In this document: piece after piece, positions 8,250-22,954 of the stretch
Layout of the letters: every line of letters starts with the position of its first letter
How positions within the stretch are numbered: position 1 is the stretch's first letter
Source of the DNA: Erysipelotrichaceae bacterium
GTDB lineage: Bacteria > Bacillota_I > Bacilli_A > Erysipelotrichales > Erysipelotrichaceae
Assembly: GCA_029974225.1 (NCBI GenBank)
Contig: JARKSP010000046.1
Span: forward strand, 1-41,070
Direction: 5' to 3'
DNA: 41,070 bases
Notes under the pieces: model-generated
Seen by the model: the letters and a program-made list of their open reading frames with translations, nothing else
Database searches by the model: none
What the model was told of the DNA's origin: nothing
Translations under genes and position numbers: made by a program

Positions 8250-8882
8250 ATGAAAAAAGGGTTGTTTTTAACTATTGAAGGATGTGATGGAAGTGGTAAA
8301 AGTACCGCTTCTTTAGCCGTTATCAAAAAATTAAAAAAGGAAGGATACGATGTTTTGCATACCAGAGAACCTGGAGGCAGTGATATTGCTGAGCAGATAA
8401 GAAAAGTTATCCTGGATGTAAATAACACCGCTATGGATGTCAGAACAGAGGCTCTGCTATATGCAGCCAGCCGGAGACAGCATCTGGTGGAAATCATTCT
8501 TCCAGCTCTTAAAGAAAATAAAATCGTCGTTTGCGATCGCTTTGTTGACTCTTCATTAGCTTATCAGGGTTATGCTCGCGGAATTGGTATTGATGAAGTT
8601 TTCAGTATCAACCAATTCGCTATTGGCAATTATATGCCTGATCTTACTATCTATTATGCTATTGATGCTCAACAGGGATTAAACCGGATTGCCGGTAGAA
8701 AAAACCTGGATCGGCTTGATGTTGAAAGCATCGCGTTCCACAAAAAAGTTCAGGATGGATATGAAATTCTTTGTGCCAAATATCCTGACCGGATTAAAGT
8801 CATCGATGCAACCCTTTCTAAAAAAGAAGTTGCCGAAAAAACATATGAACTAATTATTGAAAAGGTTAAAGAAAATGTTTAA
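8250..8882 (+). CDS. tmk: Thymidylate kinase
   Basis: The 210-residue kinase phosphorylates dTMP to dTDP. It has the P-loop EGCDGSGKST at 10-19, the TREPGGSDIAEQIR segment with the dTMP-binding arginine, the CDRFVDSSLAYQG motif, and a lid region around AGRKNLDRLD. The ATG is preceded by AGAGGT. Its 3' end overlaps holB by 8 nt, giving tmk-holB-ricT, an arrangement seen in many Bacillota. Confidence 0.96.
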   Translation: MKKGLFLTIEGCDGSGKSTASLAVIKKLKKEGYDVLHTREPGGSDIAEQIRKVILDVNNTAMDVRTEALLYAASRRQHLVEIILPALKENKIVVCDRFVDSSLAYQGYARGIGIDEVFSINQFAIGNYMPDLTIYYAIDAQQGLNRIAGRKNLDRLDVESIAFHKKVQDGYEILCAKYPDRIKVIDATLSKKEVAEKTYELIIEKVKENV

Positions 8883-9843
8883 AGAAGTTCTTGAAACAAG
8901 CCAGCCAATTGTCTATCAAACCTTAAAAAACGCTTTGGAAAGTGAGCATCTTTCTCATTGTTATTTATTTGTGGGCGATAAAGGCACCCACAAACTGGAA
9001 ACTTCTTTTTTACTGGCTCAAAGCCTGATATGTGAAAACAGAACCGCTTTTGCCTGTGAAAAATGTAACAGCTGTCGACGAATGAAAGAAAACAATTATG
9101 TTGACTTAATATATATTGATGAAGATGATAAAAACATCAAAGTCGAATTAATTGAAAATCTGCAGCATCGTTTTGAAAAAACAGCCCTGGAGAAAGCCGG
9201 CAAAAAGATATTTATCATCAATAATTGTGAGAGACTGACAATCAAGGCAGCTAATAGTCTGCTGAAGTTTATTGAAGAGCCAGCAGGAAATACCACCGGT
9301 ATTTTTATCACCACTCAGGTTGACGGAGTTCTTCCGACAATTGTTTCTCGCAGTCAGACTCTCAATTTCAAACCTTTAAACAAAGATGACTTCTTTAACT
9401 ATGCGCTTGAAAAAAATATTGATCCTTTATCTGCTCATTTAATAAGTAATCTGATAAGCAGAGAAGTTGATATCATCCCTCTTTCCAAAAACAGAAGTTT
9501 TAATAAGGCTATCGAAATATTCTGCCAGTTTATACAGCGCTATTTCGACAACCGAACCGAAAGTTATTTCTATCTGCAGAACTCAATTGCTGCTAACAAA
9601 AGAAACCAGAGAGATATCATCAGATTCTTTTTAGATATTTCACTACTCTTTATTCAGGATTACTTAAATGGTTTTGAAAGTGAAGATAAAACCTATTCAG
9701 ATTTGCTTACTTTAGCTAAAAACAATGATTTTAACTATTCGCAGGTCATGAAAGCTTTTATCGACTCAAGAACCTCGCTGAATAAAGCGGCAAATGGCTT
9801 GCTTTTAATTGATCAACTTATATATAAATTATTGGAGGTTTAA
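8875..9843 (+). CDS. holB: DNA polymerase III, delta-prime subunit
   Basis: This clamp-loader subunit of 322 residues has the AAA+ fold with a degenerate P-loop (VGDKGTHK), a zinc motif (CEKCNSC, preceded by FACEK), the DIYID-like DLIYIDED segment, KIFIINNCERLTIKAANSLL, LLKFIEEPAG, and the sensor SRSQ region typical of delta-prime. I chose the ATG at 8875 because it aligns with family N-termini and follows AAAAGG; an upstream in-frame ATG at 8857 lies deeper inside tmk. The ricT gene starts 1 nt after its stop, so the genes are co-transcribed. Confidence 0.92.
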   Translation: MFKEVLETSQPIVYQTLKNALESEHLSHCYLFVGDKGTHKLETSFLLAQSLICENRTAFACEKCNSCRRMKENNYVDLIYIDEDDKNIKVELIENLQHRFEKTALEKAGKKIFIINNCERLTIKAANSLLKFIEEPAGNTTGIFITTQVDGVLPTIVSRSQTLNFKPLNKDDFFNYALEKNIDPLSAHLISNLISREVDIIPLSKNRSFNKAIEIFCQFIQRYFDNRTESYFYLQNSIAANKRNQRDIIRFFLDISLLFIQDYLNGFESEDKTYSDLLTLAKNNDFNYSQVMKAFIDSRTSLNKAANGLLLIDQLIYKLLEV

Positions 9844-9844
9844 T

Positions 9845-10729
9845 ATGAATATAAATGAATTAAATAACAGTGAAGAAAATGTTAAATATAAATATTGTGT
9901 ATCAGTTAAATTCAACGGTTCGAAAAAAGCCTATAACTTTGGCACCGATGATGAAACTTTTAGATATGGTGATAAGGTCGTTGTTGAAACTGTCAGGGGA
10001 TTAGAACTGGGAGAATTAATCAGTGATGTCAGGGATGCAGAAACTCATCAGATTGGTGTGGCATTAAAACCGGTTTTAAGAAAAGCTACTGCCGAAGATG
10101 TTCGGCAGCATGAAGAAAACATCGGTGAAGAACCTTCACTACTTAAACGATGCCAGGAATGTATCAACCAGCTGGCTTTAGAAATGTATCTGATTTCTGC
10201 TGAATATACCCTTGATAGAACCAAAGTAATCTTTTCTTATGTCGCTGATGAAAGAGTTGACTTTAGAGAACTGCTTAAACTGCTGGCTGCTGAATTTAAA
10301 TGTCGCATTGAACTGCGACAGATAGGTCCTCGAGATAAGGCTAAGATTATTGGCGGTCTCGGCAGCTGTGGAATGGAAACCTGCTGTTCAAGATTTTTGG
10401 ATGATTTTGATATCGTCTCTATTAACATGGCCAAAAATCAGCTTTTGGCTCTAAATACCTCAAAACTTTCTGGCCAGTGTGGCAAATTGATGTGCTGCTT
10501 AAAATATGAAGATGAAGCCTATAAAAAATTAAGAGTCGGTTTACCTAAATTAAATGCTTTAGTTATTTACAATAATGAAAAATTCCGTATTACTAGTATG
10601 AACCTGTTGAACAATTCGGCAAGGATTTCCAATAAGGAAAATGCTGTTGATTTGACAATTGACGAGCTAAAGGTAATTTTAGCTTCAAACAGGAAAGAGA
10701 AAGAAAAAAGGACTTCTAATGAAGATTAA
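9845..10729 (+). CDS. ricT: PSP1-domain protein RicT (YaaT)
   Basis: This 294-residue protein carries a PSP1 domain. Its cysteine-rich core, GLGSCGMETCCSRFLDDF followed by SGQCGKLMCCLKYE, matches RicT, which with RicA and RicF forms the Fe-S Y-complex that stimulates RNase Y-dependent mRNA processing in Bacillus subtilis. The start at 9845 is set by TTGGAGGTTTAAT; a longer frame that overlaps holB has no ribosome binding site. The usual neighbour darA is not in this operon but at 39281-39604. Confidence 0.92.
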   Translation: MNINELNNSEENVKYKYCVSVKFNGSKKAYNFGTDDETFRYGDKVVVETVRGLELGELISDVRDAETHQIGVALKPVLRKATAEDVRQHEENIGEEPSLLKRCQECINQLALEMYLISAEYTLDRTKVIFSYVADERVDFRELLKLLAAEFKCRIELRQIGPRDKAKIIGGLGSCGMETCCSRFLDDFDIVSINMAKNQLLALNTSKLSGQCGKLMCCLKYEDEAYKKLRVGLPKLNALVIYNNEKFRITSMNLLNNSARISNKENAVDLTIDELKVILASNRKEKEKRTSNED

Positions 10730-10752
10730 TAATATTTAAATGGAGAATTTTT

Positions 10753-13749
10753 ATGAAAAAAGAACGTAGAATCTGGATAACTTTACTGGTGTTTGGATTA
10801 TTGGGACAGCTGGCCTGGACCATTGAAAACATGTATTTCAACATTTTTGTCTATAACACCTTGAGTGGTAATGTCGATATCATTGCCGCAATGGTTGCTT
10901 TAAGTGCTATAACCGCTACAGCTACAACTTTACTAATGGGAGCTGTCAGTGATAAGCTGGGCAGAAGAAAAGTGTTCATTACCCTGGGCTACTTTATCTG
11001 GGGCTTAACTGTCATTGCCTTCTCTTTTATCAATCTGGAGAACATGGCTAAATACTTCCCATATGTTGAAGCTGCTACTGCCGGTGGAATTACTGCAATA
11101 ATTATGGACTGTATTATGACTTTTTTCGGCTCTACTGCTAATGATGCGGCTTTCAACGCCTGGATTACTGATGAAATTGACAATACCGATCGCAGCAAAT
11201 ATGAAGCGGTGCTGGCTACTCTGCCACTGGTATCAATGATTCTTGTTTTCGGTGTCCTGGACGGCTTTACCCAGCAGGGTCGCTGGGATATTTTCTTCCT
11301 TATTGTTGGGGGAAGCGTTTCACTTGGCGGTTTATTCGGCATGTTCTTTCTTAAAGAAACTCCTGTTGCCAAATCAAAGCAGTCTTTATTCTCCAACATT
11401 GTCTACGGTTTTAAACCAGCCGTAGTAAAAGAGAATAAGAGTCTCTATCTGGCTCTTAGCTGTCTGCTGGTATTATCAATAGCCACTCAGGTCTTTATGC
11501 CTTATTTCATTATCTATATTCAGGCCTATTTACAGATCAATGACTATGCCCTGATACTGGCAGCGGTACTGATTGTTTCAAGTATAATTTCAGTACTGTT
11601 TGGAAGAGTCATTGATAAACTAGGTACTTTCAAAGTCTTCGTTCCGGCAACCTTAACCTTTGTAATTGGGCTGGTGATGATGTTCTTTGCCAGAAAAATG
11701 CTGACTATAATCCTGGCGGGAATTGTGATGATGAGTGGTAATCTGATACTTACCGCGATTATTAATGGCAGCATCCGAAACTACACTCCTGCAGATAAAG
11801 CCGGGCTGTTCCAGGGTATCAGAATGATCTTCATGGTTATGCTGCCAATGATTATTGGTCCGGTTATCGGAGCTCTTGTAATCAAAAACAGCGGTAATAC
11901 CTATGTTGATTTAGGAGTGGTAAAAGAAATTCCTACGCCAGCTATCTGGTCAGCAGCGGCTATTGTCGCTGCCCTGATTCTGATTCCTTTCTACTTTTTA
12001 GCAAAAGAAAACAAAAAACAAAGTGCAATTCACTATAAATTATTAACTGAATACGGCGAACAGTTTGACCTCAATAATGTTCTGCCAGAATATCCTCGCC
12101 CACAGCTGGTCAGAGATTCTTATCTCAATCTCAATGGTCTATGGAAATACACCATTAACCAGAGCGAGGAAATTCCTTCTGCTTTCGAAGGTGATGTCGT
12201 TGTTCCTTATTCCATTGAATCATTACTTTCACGAGTCAATAAAACTATTACCCCGAAAGATGTTCTGTGGTATCAGAAAAGTTTCACCTTGCCGGAAGGT
12301 TTCAACAAAGGTCTGGTTCACTTACACTTTGGTGCGGTTGATCAGATCTGTAGGGTCTACATCAATCAGCAGTTAGTCGGCGAACATGTCGGCGGCTATT
12401 TGCCATTCTCTTTTGAAATATCAGAGTATCTGCAGGAAGTAAATGAACTGGTGGTTTATGTTAAGGATTTAACCGATACCAGCTATCATGCAAAAGGTAA
12501 ACAGTCATCAAAGCGTGGTGGCATCTGGTACACCCCTACCAGCGGTATCTGGCAGACTGTCTGGTTAGAATCAACTCCGCTAAATCATATCGAATCTGTC
12601 AGAATTTCTATTGATTATGATCTTCAAACCGTTAATTTAGTAATTAACGGCAACAGCGACAACTATAGCGTTACTGTCAAAGAGGGAAGTAAAATCGTTT
12701 TCAATCAGCAGGTTGAAGCTACCGCTGCTATCAGATTAGAAAATGTTCGCAGCTGGACTCCTGAAAATCCATTCCTGTATGACCTGATTGTTTCCAATGG
12801 TGAAGATACTATAAGTTCTTACTTCGGTATGAGAAAGTTCTCTATTTCGGGAGATAGAAACGGAAAGAGGCGTCTGACTTTAAATAATAAACCTTACTTC
12901 CATAAAGGGGTATTAGATCAGGGCTACTACAGTGATGGCATCTATACTCCGGCCAGCTACAAACAGATTGAAGATGACATTAGGATGCTTAAAGATATGG
13001 GCTTCAATACTATCAGAAAACATATCAAGATTGAGCCACTGTATTTCTACTATCTATGTGACAAAATGGGAATACTGGTCTGGCAGGATATGGTTAATGG
13101 CGGAGGAAAATACTCCGATCTGATTATCGGATATCTACCTTATTTGAAAGTCTTAAATATCAAAGACAGCAGTTACGGCCTGTTTGCCAGAAGCAGTAAA
13201 GAAGGAAGAGAACAATTCGTTAAAGAAATGAAGGAAACTGTCAATTTACTTTACAACACTGTTTCACTGGCTCTCTGGGTGCCATTTAATGAAGGCTGGG
13301 GACAGTTTGATGCCCTAAAGATCACCGAAATGTTGAAAAGCTGGGACAGCTCAAGAGCTATCGACCATGCCAGCGGCTGGCATGACCAAAAGGGTGGCGA
13401 TTTGTTCAGTAAGCATATTTACTTTGATAAAATCAAGTTTGAAGATGATGATCGTGTCTGGGCTTTAACTGAATATGGCGGATATTCCTGGGCAGTTAAA
13501 GGACATACCTATAACAATGCCAACTTTGGCTATCTGGTCTTCAATAATCGAGTTGACCTGCAAAGCGCCTTTATTCAACTTCACAATGAGCAGATTGTCC
13601 CACTGGTTGAAAAAGGATTGTCAGCGATTATTTACACCCAGCTGTCAGATGTTGAAGATGAAGTAAATGGATTAGTAACTTATGATCGCAAGGTCATAAA
13701 GTTCGATGCTAAGGTTATCAAAAACGTTTTAGATAAATTGCAATTTTAA
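10753..13749 (+). CDS. Fusion protein: MFS transporter joined to family 2 glycoside hydrolase
   Basis: One continuous 998-codon frame encodes two complete modules. Residues 1 to about 422 form 12 predicted membrane helices with an MFS motif A (GAVSDKLGRRKV, near 63) between helices 2 and 3. After a short linker (AKENKKQSAIHYKLLTEYGE), residues from about 445 form a GH2 enzyme: a sugar-binding jelly roll with SLNLNGLWKY-like start (YLNLNGLWKY), an immunoglobulin-like domain, then a TIM barrel. The general acid/base is Glu847 in VPFNEGWGQF and the nucleophile is probably Glu907 in ALTEYGGYSW. With an even helix number the hydrolase should be cytosolic, next to the transporter exit. No start codon with a ribosome binding site exists at the junction. 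SD TGGAG lies before ATG 10753. The sugar specificity is unknown; a beta-glycoside or glucuronide is likely. Confidence 0.88.
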   Translation: MKKERRIWITLLVFGLLGQLAWTIENMYFNIFVYNTLSGNVDIIAAMVALSAITATATTLLMGAVSDKLGRRKVFITLGYFIWGLTVIAFSFINLENMAKYFPYVEAATAGGITAIIMDCIMTFFGSTANDAAFNAWITDEIDNTDRSKYEAVLATLPLVSMILVFGVLDGFTQQGRWDIFFLIVGGSVSLGGLFGMFFLKETPVAKSKQSLFSNIVYGFKPAVVKENKSLYLALSCLLVLSIATQVFMPYFIIYIQAYLQINDYALILAAVLIVSSIISVLFGRVIDKLGTFKVFVPATLTFVIGLVMMFFARKMLTIILAGIVMMSGNLILTAIINGSIRNYTPADKAGLFQGIRMIFMVMLPMIIGPVIGALVIKNSGNTYVDLGVVKEIPTPAIWSAAAIVAALILIPFYFLAKENKKQSAIHYKLLTEYGEQFDLNNVLPEYPRPQLVRDSYLNLNGLWKYTINQSEEIPSAFEGDVVVPYSIESLLSRVNKTITPKDVLWYQKSFTLPEGFNKGLVHLHFGAVDQICRVYINQQLVGEHVGGYLPFSFEISEYLQEVNELVVYVKDLTDTSYHAKGKQSSKRGGIWYTPTSGIWQTVWLESTPLNHIESVRISIDYDLQTVNLVINGNSDNYSVTVKEGSKIVFNQQVEATAAIRLENVRSWTPENPFLYDLIVSNGEDTISSYFGMRKFSISGDRNGKRRLTLNNKPYFHKGVLDQGYYSDGIYTPASYKQIEDDIRMLKDMGFNTIRKHIKIEPLYFYYLCDKMGILVWQDMVNGGGKYSDLIIGYLPYLKVLNIKDSSYGLFARSSKEGREQFVKEMKETVNLLYNTVSLALWVPFNEGWGQFDALKITEMLKSWDSSRAIDHASGWHDQKGGDLFSKHIYFDKIKFEDDDRVWALTEYGGYSWAVKGHTYNNANFGYLVFNNRVDLQSAFIQLHNEQIVPLVEKGLSAIIYTQLSDVEDEVNGLVTYDRKVIKFDAKVIKNVLDKLQF

Positions 13750-13775
13750 AGGAGACCTTTTAGGCCTCCTTTTTA
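13748..13775 (+). terminator. Intrinsic terminator after the MFS-GH2 gene
   Basis: AAAGGAG (13748-13754) pairs with CTCCTTT (13766-13772) with an inner CCT/AGG stem, followed by TTTT. It ends the tmk-holB-ricT-MFS-GH2 transcription unit. Confidence 0.8.
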
Positions 13776-20946: not shown

Positions 20947-22926
20947 TTAAACGAACTGACTTGGGTGTTTTACATAGAAGTCTTCTCTTTCTTTCAGTTC
21001 CGTAATTTTATGATTTTCTTTATCTTCCATAAAGAAATAGCTATCCTGGAAAATATTGTCCCAGCTAAAGAACTCCTCTTTATCAAAACCTAGATAATCC
21101 ACTGTTTTCTCCGTTCCTTCCGGACAGACGGGATGAGAAAGAACCGTTGCCACTCTCACCATGTGGAAGGCATCAATTAAAGTCTGTTTTTTCAACTCCG
21201 CATCCTCTCGGTTGTTAGCCAGGGTATTGTTTCTTGACCAGTATTTATTAGCCTGTCTGATATAAGTGTCTAAGATATTGTGAATCTGATGCAGTTCAAA
21301 ACGATACATAGCGTTTTCATAATCCAGGATTGTCTTTTCTGATTCTCTAAGTATCTCTTCTGAGATCCTGCCATATGGTATTATACCATCAAAATATCTG
21401 GCGCTGGCATAAAAACAGCTTCTGACCAGTCTGTTCAGAACATTGGTAAACAGGTTTCCCTGAGCTAAGACCGGGTCCTGTTCTTTTTCGTTAGCTGTTG
21501 GATTTAGTGGCTTAGGCATAAAACTAACCGATTTATTAGCTAAAGCTAAACCTAAAAAGTGTGCTCTCAGCTGTTCGGCAGTATAGTAATCCAGCAAATC
21601 CTGAGCCATAGGCGGTTTTACTTCTCCTGAAGAAGAAGCTTTTTTATCTAAAAACAGAACATGATGATTAGCTACCAGTGTTGTCAGCTGCAGCTGTCCT
21701 TTAGCCGGATTTATTCTTAGCTCCGGTCCTTCCTGGGCCATAAACATTGGCATCTGGGCGATTCCATAAAAATAGATATTATCCTGGCCAATAAACTGGA
21801 AGACTTCAGCTTGCGGATCACACCAGAAATCTTTCCACGCTTCTTCATCTTTGCCTATTCTCTTTAAAAAGGTCTTGGTAAATGATATGGGAGCCCAGAG
21901 ACTTTCCGGCCAAACCCAGACAGTCAAGCCTTCTTCTCCTTCAAGGGAAGGAGCTTTTACTCCCCAATCAATGTTTCCGGTCAAGCGAAGAGGGACTAAT
22001 GTTTTTCCTGTTCTATATCTGATTGAATTTCTGGTTAACAGTTCACAGGCTGTTTCTCTTTCCACCAGAGTCTTAAACTCAATAGTGAAACTGTCTTTGA
22101 CATTTTCTAAATCTGAGCACCGGTGTTCAGGCAGCTGATTTCTAATCTCCCTGTAGGTTTCAATACCTTCTTTTCTGACATAGATTATCGGTTTAGCCAA
22201 TGATTCTCTCATTGTTTCCCAGACAATCTTTCTGACATTTGGCTTAGTTGAAATATAGTCTACATACTCTTCTAAAATATCAAAACAGTCAGTTAGTTTG
22301 AAATACCAGTTAACTACATCTCTCATTTCAGGAACCTCGCCGGTGATGGTGCTTCTTGGATTAATTAAATCTTCTGGCATGTACTGATGGCCCAGATAAC
22401 ATTCATCGGCATATCCTTTTTCTGACTGACAGTTTCTGATTGGACATTTGCCGATTACCTGTCTTCCGTTAAGAAAACAGTCGGCTTTGGCATCATAGAA
22501 CTGTTTTGTGACCATTTTTTCCAGCCAGCCATGATTATATAGTTTTTCAATGAATTCGTTAGTTTCCTGCTGATGAATTTCCTTAGAATCCAGCAGTCCG
22601 CTGGCACCATAAATATCCAAGCTGATTTCATAGGCGTCCAGTGTTGTCTTTTGAGCCAAATGATTTTCCATAACATAGTCTTCGATGGTGCCTGAAAAAC
22701 CTTCTTCTTCAACTTTTTTCCGATAGCCTTCAACAATTGGTGAGCCATAACAGTCTGTTCCACTTAAAAAAATAACATTGTCTTTACCTATTCTATCTCT
22801 TAAAAATCTGGCAAAAACATCGGCATGAATAAACATTCCGCCGATATGTCCAAAGTGCAGGGCTTTATTGCCATAAGGCATACCGCCGGTTACTATGGCT
22901 TTCTTCGGGAAAACAGGACGCGACAT
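20947..22926 (-). CDS. Divergent second methionyl-tRNA synthetase-like protein (class I)
   Basis: This 659-residue protein has the MetRS fold: VTGGMPYGNKALHFGHIGGM (HIGH region as HFGH), IFLSGTDCYGSPI, a cysteine cluster CPIRNC...DEC, a WPESLWAPI region and FQFIGQDNIYFYGIAQMPMF. The KMSKS loop reads LDKKASSSGE, so the second lysine is replaced by serine. It lacks the C-terminal tRNA-binding domain of the T-box-controlled MetG and is closer to the longer E. coli/archaeal-like MetRS type. The ATG at 22926 follows GGAGG by 8 nt. It heads an operon with gltX and an S66 peptidase. It may be a second synthetase or a related ligase with another role. Confidence 0.82.
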   Translation of the reverse strand: MSRPVFPKKAIVTGGMPYGNKALHFGHIGGMFIHADVFARFLRDRIGKDNVIFLSGTDCYGSPIVEGYRKKVEEEGFSGTIEDYVMENHLAQKTTLDAYEISLDIYGASGLLDSKEIHQQETNEFIEKLYNHGWLEKMVTKQFYDAKADCFLNGRQVIGKCPIRNCQSEKGYADECYLGHQYMPEDLINPRSTITGEVPEMRDVVNWYFKLTDCFDILEEYVDYISTKPNVRKIVWETMRESLAKPIIYVRKEGIETYREIRNQLPEHRCSDLENVKDSFTIEFKTLVERETACELLTRNSIRYRTGKTLVPLRLTGNIDWGVKAPSLEGEEGLTVWVWPESLWAPISFTKTFLKRIGKDEEAWKDFWCDPQAEVFQFIGQDNIYFYGIAQMPMFMAQEGPELRINPAKGQLQLTTLVANHHVLFLDKKASSSGEVKPPMAQDLLDYYTAEQLRAHFLGLALANKSVSFMPKPLNPTANEKEQDPVLAQGNLFTNVLNRLVRSCFYASARYFDGIIPYGRISEEILRESEKTILDYENAMYRFELHQIHNILDTYIRQANKYWSRNNTLANNREDAELKKQTLIDAFHMVRVATVLSHPVCPEGTEKTVDYLGFDKEEFFSWDNIFQDSYFFMEDKENHKITELKEREDFYVKHPSQFV

Positions 22927-22954
22927 AAAAAATACCTCCATCGAAATTACAAAA

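Follow-up and report, generated by a model that had tools for sequence, protein, structure and literature searches.

The closest architectural precedent for the protein studied here is LplT-Aas, in which an MFS carrier is paired with a cytosolic enzyme acting on the carrier's substrate. Its two parts are encoded by adjacent genes in many bacteria and apparently by one ORF in some (PMC11416262), and the same alternation between fused and adjacent genes is found in the MFS-GH2 family described below, in which carrier and enzyme would likewise share a substrate. The likeness drawn here is one of architecture. LplT is a lysophospholipid flippase and thus handles a lipid substrate, and its partner is an acyltransferase/synthetase. 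Moreover, complex formation has been shown for the Escherichia coli LplT-Aas pair, whereas the MFS-GH2 fusion is known from its sequence and a structural model.

A second precedent is offered by the uidA-uidB and lacZ-lacY pairs of E. coli, in which a GH2 enzyme and an MFS importer are encoded side by side, with a 4-nt overlap between uidA and uidB. These pairs differ from the present system in that they yield separate proteins, have the enzyme gene first, involve other carriers and pyranoside substrates, and have a dedicated repressor. As for the enzyme half, its closest solved relative is 7SF2, a free GH2 protein of Bacteroides cellulosilyticus deposited as a beta-galactosidase. ORF1110, a beta-D-galactofuranosidase of Streptomyces sp. 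JHA19 (9J6M/9J6N, GH2_18), matches the entire GH2 part in fold and has the same catalytic pair, but it is a free enzyme, solved as a protein without a carrier. Fusion of an MFS carrier to an enzyme thus has a precedent in LplT-Aas, and we found no description of a fused carrier-glycosidase among open-access papers, which is weak evidence of absence.

A single frame for a carrier and a glycosidase

The window, i.e. the whole stretch of DNA analysed, comprises 41,070 nucleotides of contig JARKSP010000046.1 from an Erysipelotrichaceae bacterium (GCA_029974225.1). A preliminary description had proposed that one of its genes fuses an MFS transporter to a complete GH2 enzyme, and this is borne out (Table 1). 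The frame opens with an ATG and runs without interruption over 998 residues. Searching Pfam for both halves in that order, as had been suggested, places MFS_1 within the first 425 residues and three GH2 domains, whose matches span residues 473-884, behind it; all pass the cut-off. The source genome (1.57 Mb in 120 contigs) contains one copy of the fusion gene. The probable terminator directly behind its stop codon is missing from the list of a scanner that tolerates no mismatch.

Table 1. Features of the fusion gene and of the genes upstream, in window coordinates
Feature	Positions	Strand	Evidence
tmk, dTMP kinase, first of the gene string ending in the fusion gene	8250..8882	+	TIGR00041, 9.8e-62
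holB, DNA polymerase III delta' (true start probably slightly downstream)	8857..9843	+	–
ricT	9809..10729	+	NF041131, 6.4e-82
Shine-Dalgarno-like GGAG, 7 nt 5' of the ATG	10742..10745	+	sequence
Fused gene, MFS carrier and GH2 glycosidase, 998 aa	10753..13749	+	open frame, Pfam domains
MFS carrier part, residues 1-425, predicted 12 TM helices with cytosolic N and C ends	10753..12027	+	MFS_1, 7.5e-25; model; charge distribution
Junction, residues 418-445	12004..12087	+	no internal start with ribosome-binding site; in 4 species free of indels and subject to purifying selection
GH2 N-terminal sugar-binding (jelly-roll) domain, residues 446-609	12088..12579	+	PF02837, 5.1e-16
GH2 Ig-like domain, residues 613-700	12589..12852	+	PF00703, 4.1e-08
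GH2 TIM-barrel catalytic domain, residues 705-998	12865..13746	+	PF02836, 4.7e-06
E847 codon, predicted acid/base (NE motif)	13291..13293	+	aligns with UidA E413; invariant
E907 codon, predicted nucleophile	13471..13473	+	aligns with UidA E504; invariant
Probable intrinsic terminator, AGGAGACC-TTTTA-GGCCTCCT followed by a T run	13750..13774	+	sequence, by eye

In the fused genes the last carrier helix leads almost directly into the start of the enzyme, and the carrier-GH2 order is kept. The linker had been described as devoid of an internal start codon with a ribosome-binding site, and indeed the window gene has no in-frame ATG, GTG or TTG from 45 codons 5' to 15 codons 3' of the EYPRP motif. 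Comparison of its junction codons with those of three relatives revealed no indel and dN/dS values of ~0.03-0.13, with synonymous sites near saturation. The AlphaFold model shows a short, well-ordered linker, and its pTM of 0.79 suggests that the two halves have a defined placement. Where the enzyme gene used to start, 15 codons before EYPRP, the fused gene of one of the Clostridia (L038) retains an AGGAG and an ATG in frame, and because of this it might still make free enzyme.

Joining and splitting of the two genes

A check for homologues in several genomes had been suggested, and the fused frame proved to be present in 24 genomes, each assembled separately. It occurs in all seven members of the genus to which the window belongs, the six relatives being 64-89% identical to the window protein and devoid of stop codons. 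It is also found in four further genomes of the family near the window's clade (G231, G234, G236 and G237), in g54 (G241 and G242), in two Clostridia (L038 and L039), in G656 and in eight genomes of g122, a genus from another family of the same class. Fused carrier-enzyme proteins occur in several bacterial groups, both gut and environmental ones. As the fused frame recurs across the genus and in other genera and orders, a missed stop codon or frameshift at 12000-12060 is excluded, and the 24 fused genomes also rule out that homologues are always two genes. Most homologous pairs are two genes, which is what an assembly or sequencing artefact joining neighbours would lead one to expect, but with so many fused genomes assembled separately and a linker under purifying selection, without stop or indel, such an artefact is excluded.

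The commonest arrangement in our genome scan is two adjacent genes, carrier then GH2, which fits the remark in the preliminary description that transporters and GH2 enzymes are normally separate genes. Of the 20 junctions examined, 19 have the GH2 start within the carrier gene, with an overlap of 4-23 bases, and GGAG or AGGAG precedes the GH2 start in most of the split junctions shown, the enzyme gene having its own ribosome-binding site. In a few genomes there is a gap between the two. The order is reversed in a Propionibacteriaceae locus (L069:5956-9073), where GH2 precedes the carrier with an 11-nt overlap. A more distant match (33%) in G107:C47:7782-10643 extends over both carrier and enzyme but contains a single TAA in frame, and represents either an interrupted fusion or an in-frame split pair. 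Many family members have GH2 without a carrier, and in the examined loci of many Oscillospiraceae the carrier occurs without GH2. In three of the latter, the GH2-less carrier adjoins a single protein composed of an EF-G/TetM-like GTPase and a C-terminal YacP/Rae1-like NYN nuclease domain (L072:2621-5221, L074:246-3146 and L083:1378-3996). A carrier of the same family also adjoins other partners, namely a CBM9_2 protein and an APH-like kinase (L074:5258-8203). Spread of the fusion by plasmids was considered and rejected, as coverage of the fused protein reaches 80% in none of the plasmid records, and the 20 best of 80 align with the GH2 half only, with 30-42% identity.

A single clade of fused proteins was rejected by the AU test, both on the GH2 tree (p 0.011) and on the MFS tree (p 5e-7), and later, careful maximum-likelihood trees agree. 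The latter require five changes of the fused/split label for GH2 and five for MFS. With G656 added, the numbers become five and six, of which well-supported branches force four and four to five, respectively. Since the trees of either half need several such changes, joining of carrier and enzyme is recurrent. Strongly supported branches place the fused proteins of L038 and L039 within a clade of split pairs, and the change there is therefore a fusion; this is the only pair for which the trees tell fusion from fission. On both trees the split pair of G531/L143 sits inside the g122 fused clade, and it may have been re-split. The trees of the two halves agree in this, which fits joint inheritance. 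We consider it probable that the fusion arose by the joining of two adjacent, usually overlapping genes.

What the fusion brings may simply be a fixed expression ratio, with the carrier and the furanosidase otherwise working independently. We give this reading, a variant compatible with the explanation favoured below, about even chances. The adjacent, mostly overlapping genes of the split relatives speak for it, as do the repeated fused/split changes, perhaps including the re-splitting of L143 in the g122 fused clade, and the L038 junction, whose AGGAG and ATG could still give free enzyme. It accounts less well for the short, well-ordered linker of the model and the defined placement of the halves that the pTM suggests, or for a junction free of indels in four species.

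The enzyme half

The GH2 half carries the GH2_N, Ig-like and TIM-barrel domains in the order of family 2, all above the Pfam cut-off. The two residues previously singled out as catalytic glutamates hold up, as E847 and E907 align with E413 and E504 of E. coli UidA and with both LacZ glutamates, N846-E847 forming the NE motif. Neither varies among the 13 fused proteins of alignment A1 or the 51 GH2 rows of alignment A2.

Among solved proteins, the best sequence matches of this half are 7SF2 (E 2e-129), 9J6N (E 8e-105) and the GH2_19 member 7XYR (E 9e-67), with true beta-glucuronidases ranking far behind (E 7e-22 or worse). For residues 427-998, superposition of the model gave a Z of 49.5 and an rmsd of 1.6 with 7SF2 (559 residues, 40% identity), and a Z of 47.9 and an rmsd of 1.7 with 9J6N (543 residues, 38% identity of aligned residues). 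The top solved matches after 7SF2 are members of GH2 group III, namely 9J6N/9J6M (GH2_18) and 7XYR (GH2_19). A trait of this group is the replacement by Thr of the Trp at the -1 subsite, for which we looked at T962. All 13 fused proteins of A1 have that residue, as does 7SF2, but the sequence alignment puts UidA W549 three residues off.

A study of GH2 subfamilies placed 9J6M in GH2_18 and reported that GH2_18 and GH2_19 are active on alpha-L-arabinofuranosides and beta-D-galactofuranosides (PMC12243196). GH2_19 proteins are mostly unsecreted (PMC12243196), according to an analysis of secretion from which proteins with transmembrane segments were excluded. In the Streptomyces beta-D-galactofuranosidase, the acid/base residue E464 was confirmed by mutation (PMC11084152). 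Since 7SF2 and that enzyme (9J6M/9J6N) are its nearest solved relatives, the GH2 half appears to belong with the furanose-active branch, and 'predicted furanosidase' is the best class for it. The earlier label of glycoside hydrolase thus stands as far as GH2 membership goes and is narrowed by the nearest solved relatives.

The carrier half

The first half has the hallmarks of an MFS protein, with the MFS_1 profile, 12 TM helices and the conserved loop 2-3 motif G-x-x-x-D-x-x-G-R-R-K. The AlphaFold model (mean pLDDT 91.8, pTM 0.79) has both termini on the cytosolic side, and helices 11 and 12 are linked by a hairpin at the outer face (residues 383-392). The loop charges, with 17 K+R inside vs 6 outside, are consistent with this topology, and the model thus sides with the earlier proposal that 12 helices leave the hydrolase facing the cytosol. 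Polar or charged residues that are invariant inside helices (E25, D119, D131, Q246 and Y255), together with the nearly invariant R357, would suit a proton-coupled carrier.

Neither the substrate of the carrier nor its direction is readable from the sequence. No Pfam match to the known MFS sugar families (GPH/MFS_2, Sugar_tr) was found up to E = 1. As the carrier matches MFS_1 only, its reading as a sugar transporter derives from its pairing with the enzyme. Against the PDB its profile matched only LmrP and a quinidine resistance protein, which gives no assignment to sugar carriers. Its nearest solved folds are mostly carriers of drugs and organic solutes, including NorA, YajR and LmrP; the structural match list is taken up by MFS and GH2 chains, so that families absent from it carry no inference. 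These resemblances invite the alternative that the carrier is a DHA1-like exporter, with GH2 cleaving a glycoside inside the cell and the aglycone or sugar being expelled. However, similarity to an MFS fold gives no direction of transport, MelB and FucP follow only a few Z units lower, and the glycoside would need a separate route of entry. We regard export as improbable.

Gene context and sugar metabolism

The odd location noted earlier for a catabolic gene, at the end of a tmk-holB-ricT string, is upheld (Table 1). The same string lies upstream of the fusion in g53 and in those other members of the genus for which the locus extends far enough. In the g122 loci examined the neighbours are non-sugar genes, such as those of an NAD(P)H-hydrate dehydratase and a P-type ATPase, and in a g54 locus (L156) an alpha-amylase-family gene adjoins the fusion. 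Elsewhere in the window, positions 20947-22941 encode a 664-aa methionyl-tRNA-synthetase-like protein, which MetG models match in two separate pieces, below their cut-offs. The fused genes mostly stand alone among housekeeping genes, and no sugar family recurs among 92 neighbours of split pairs, which makes the carrier-enzyme unit look self-sufficient. Gene context was accordingly discarded as a guide to the substrate, since the neighbours of fused and split versions name none.

A galactokinase signature was found in all 21 fused genomes tested, against a base rate of 203/268 in the family. Arabinose isomerase was detected in one of the 21 (0/7 in the genus, 1/14 in the others), with a base rate of 12/268. 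These base rates make the evidence weak, and galactose is thus favoured only slightly. The galactokinase-like protein of the window's genome scores below the NCBIfam cut-offs, and among the fused genomes a PF01087-type GalT was found in those of g122 only. Just upstream of that galactokinase-like gene, a 530-aa protein (L142:3632-5224) has no Pfam or NCBIfam match at the limits used. The substrate could instead be an alpha-L-arabinofuranoside or another glycoside, everything else being as in the favoured explanation. Both activities exist in GH2_18 and in GH2_19 (PMC12243196), but the near-absence of arabinose isomerase from the fused genomes goes against arabinofuranoside, with the proviso that this enzyme is rare family-wide. 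A substrate other than galactofuranoside thus seems unlikely, though less so than export.

A possible uptake-and-hydrolysis unit

The explanation that we favour, and hold to be probable, is that the fused protein is an inner-membrane unit for the uptake and hydrolysis of a small furanoside, most likely a galactofuranoside. The MFS half would import the furanoside, with beta-D-galactofuranoside as the most likely and alpha-L-arabinofuranoside as a less likely substrate, and the cytosolic GH2 half would hydrolyse it by the usual retaining mechanism of GH2 enzymes. Hydrolysis would release a monosaccharide and an aglycone or second sugar, and a galactokinase-like enzyme would then phosphorylate any galactose set free. 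Fusion would set a 1:1 ratio of carrier to enzyme and keep the latter at the membrane. Coupling of transport to hydrolysis is plausible. It is tempting to speculate that the GH2 active site is held at the cytosolic exit of the carrier and cuts the imported galactofuranoside before it mixes with the cytosol, and that this advantage drove repeated, independent fusion; we consider this stronger proposal doubtful.

If the favoured explanation is true, a single gene would provide a self-contained unit for the uptake and cleavage of furanosides. The closely related fused and unfused versions represent a natural test of whether tying the enzyme to the carrier helps. No galactofuranose carrier of gut Bacillota is described in the literature searched, and the fusion would offer a way into the use of galactofuranose by these bacteria.
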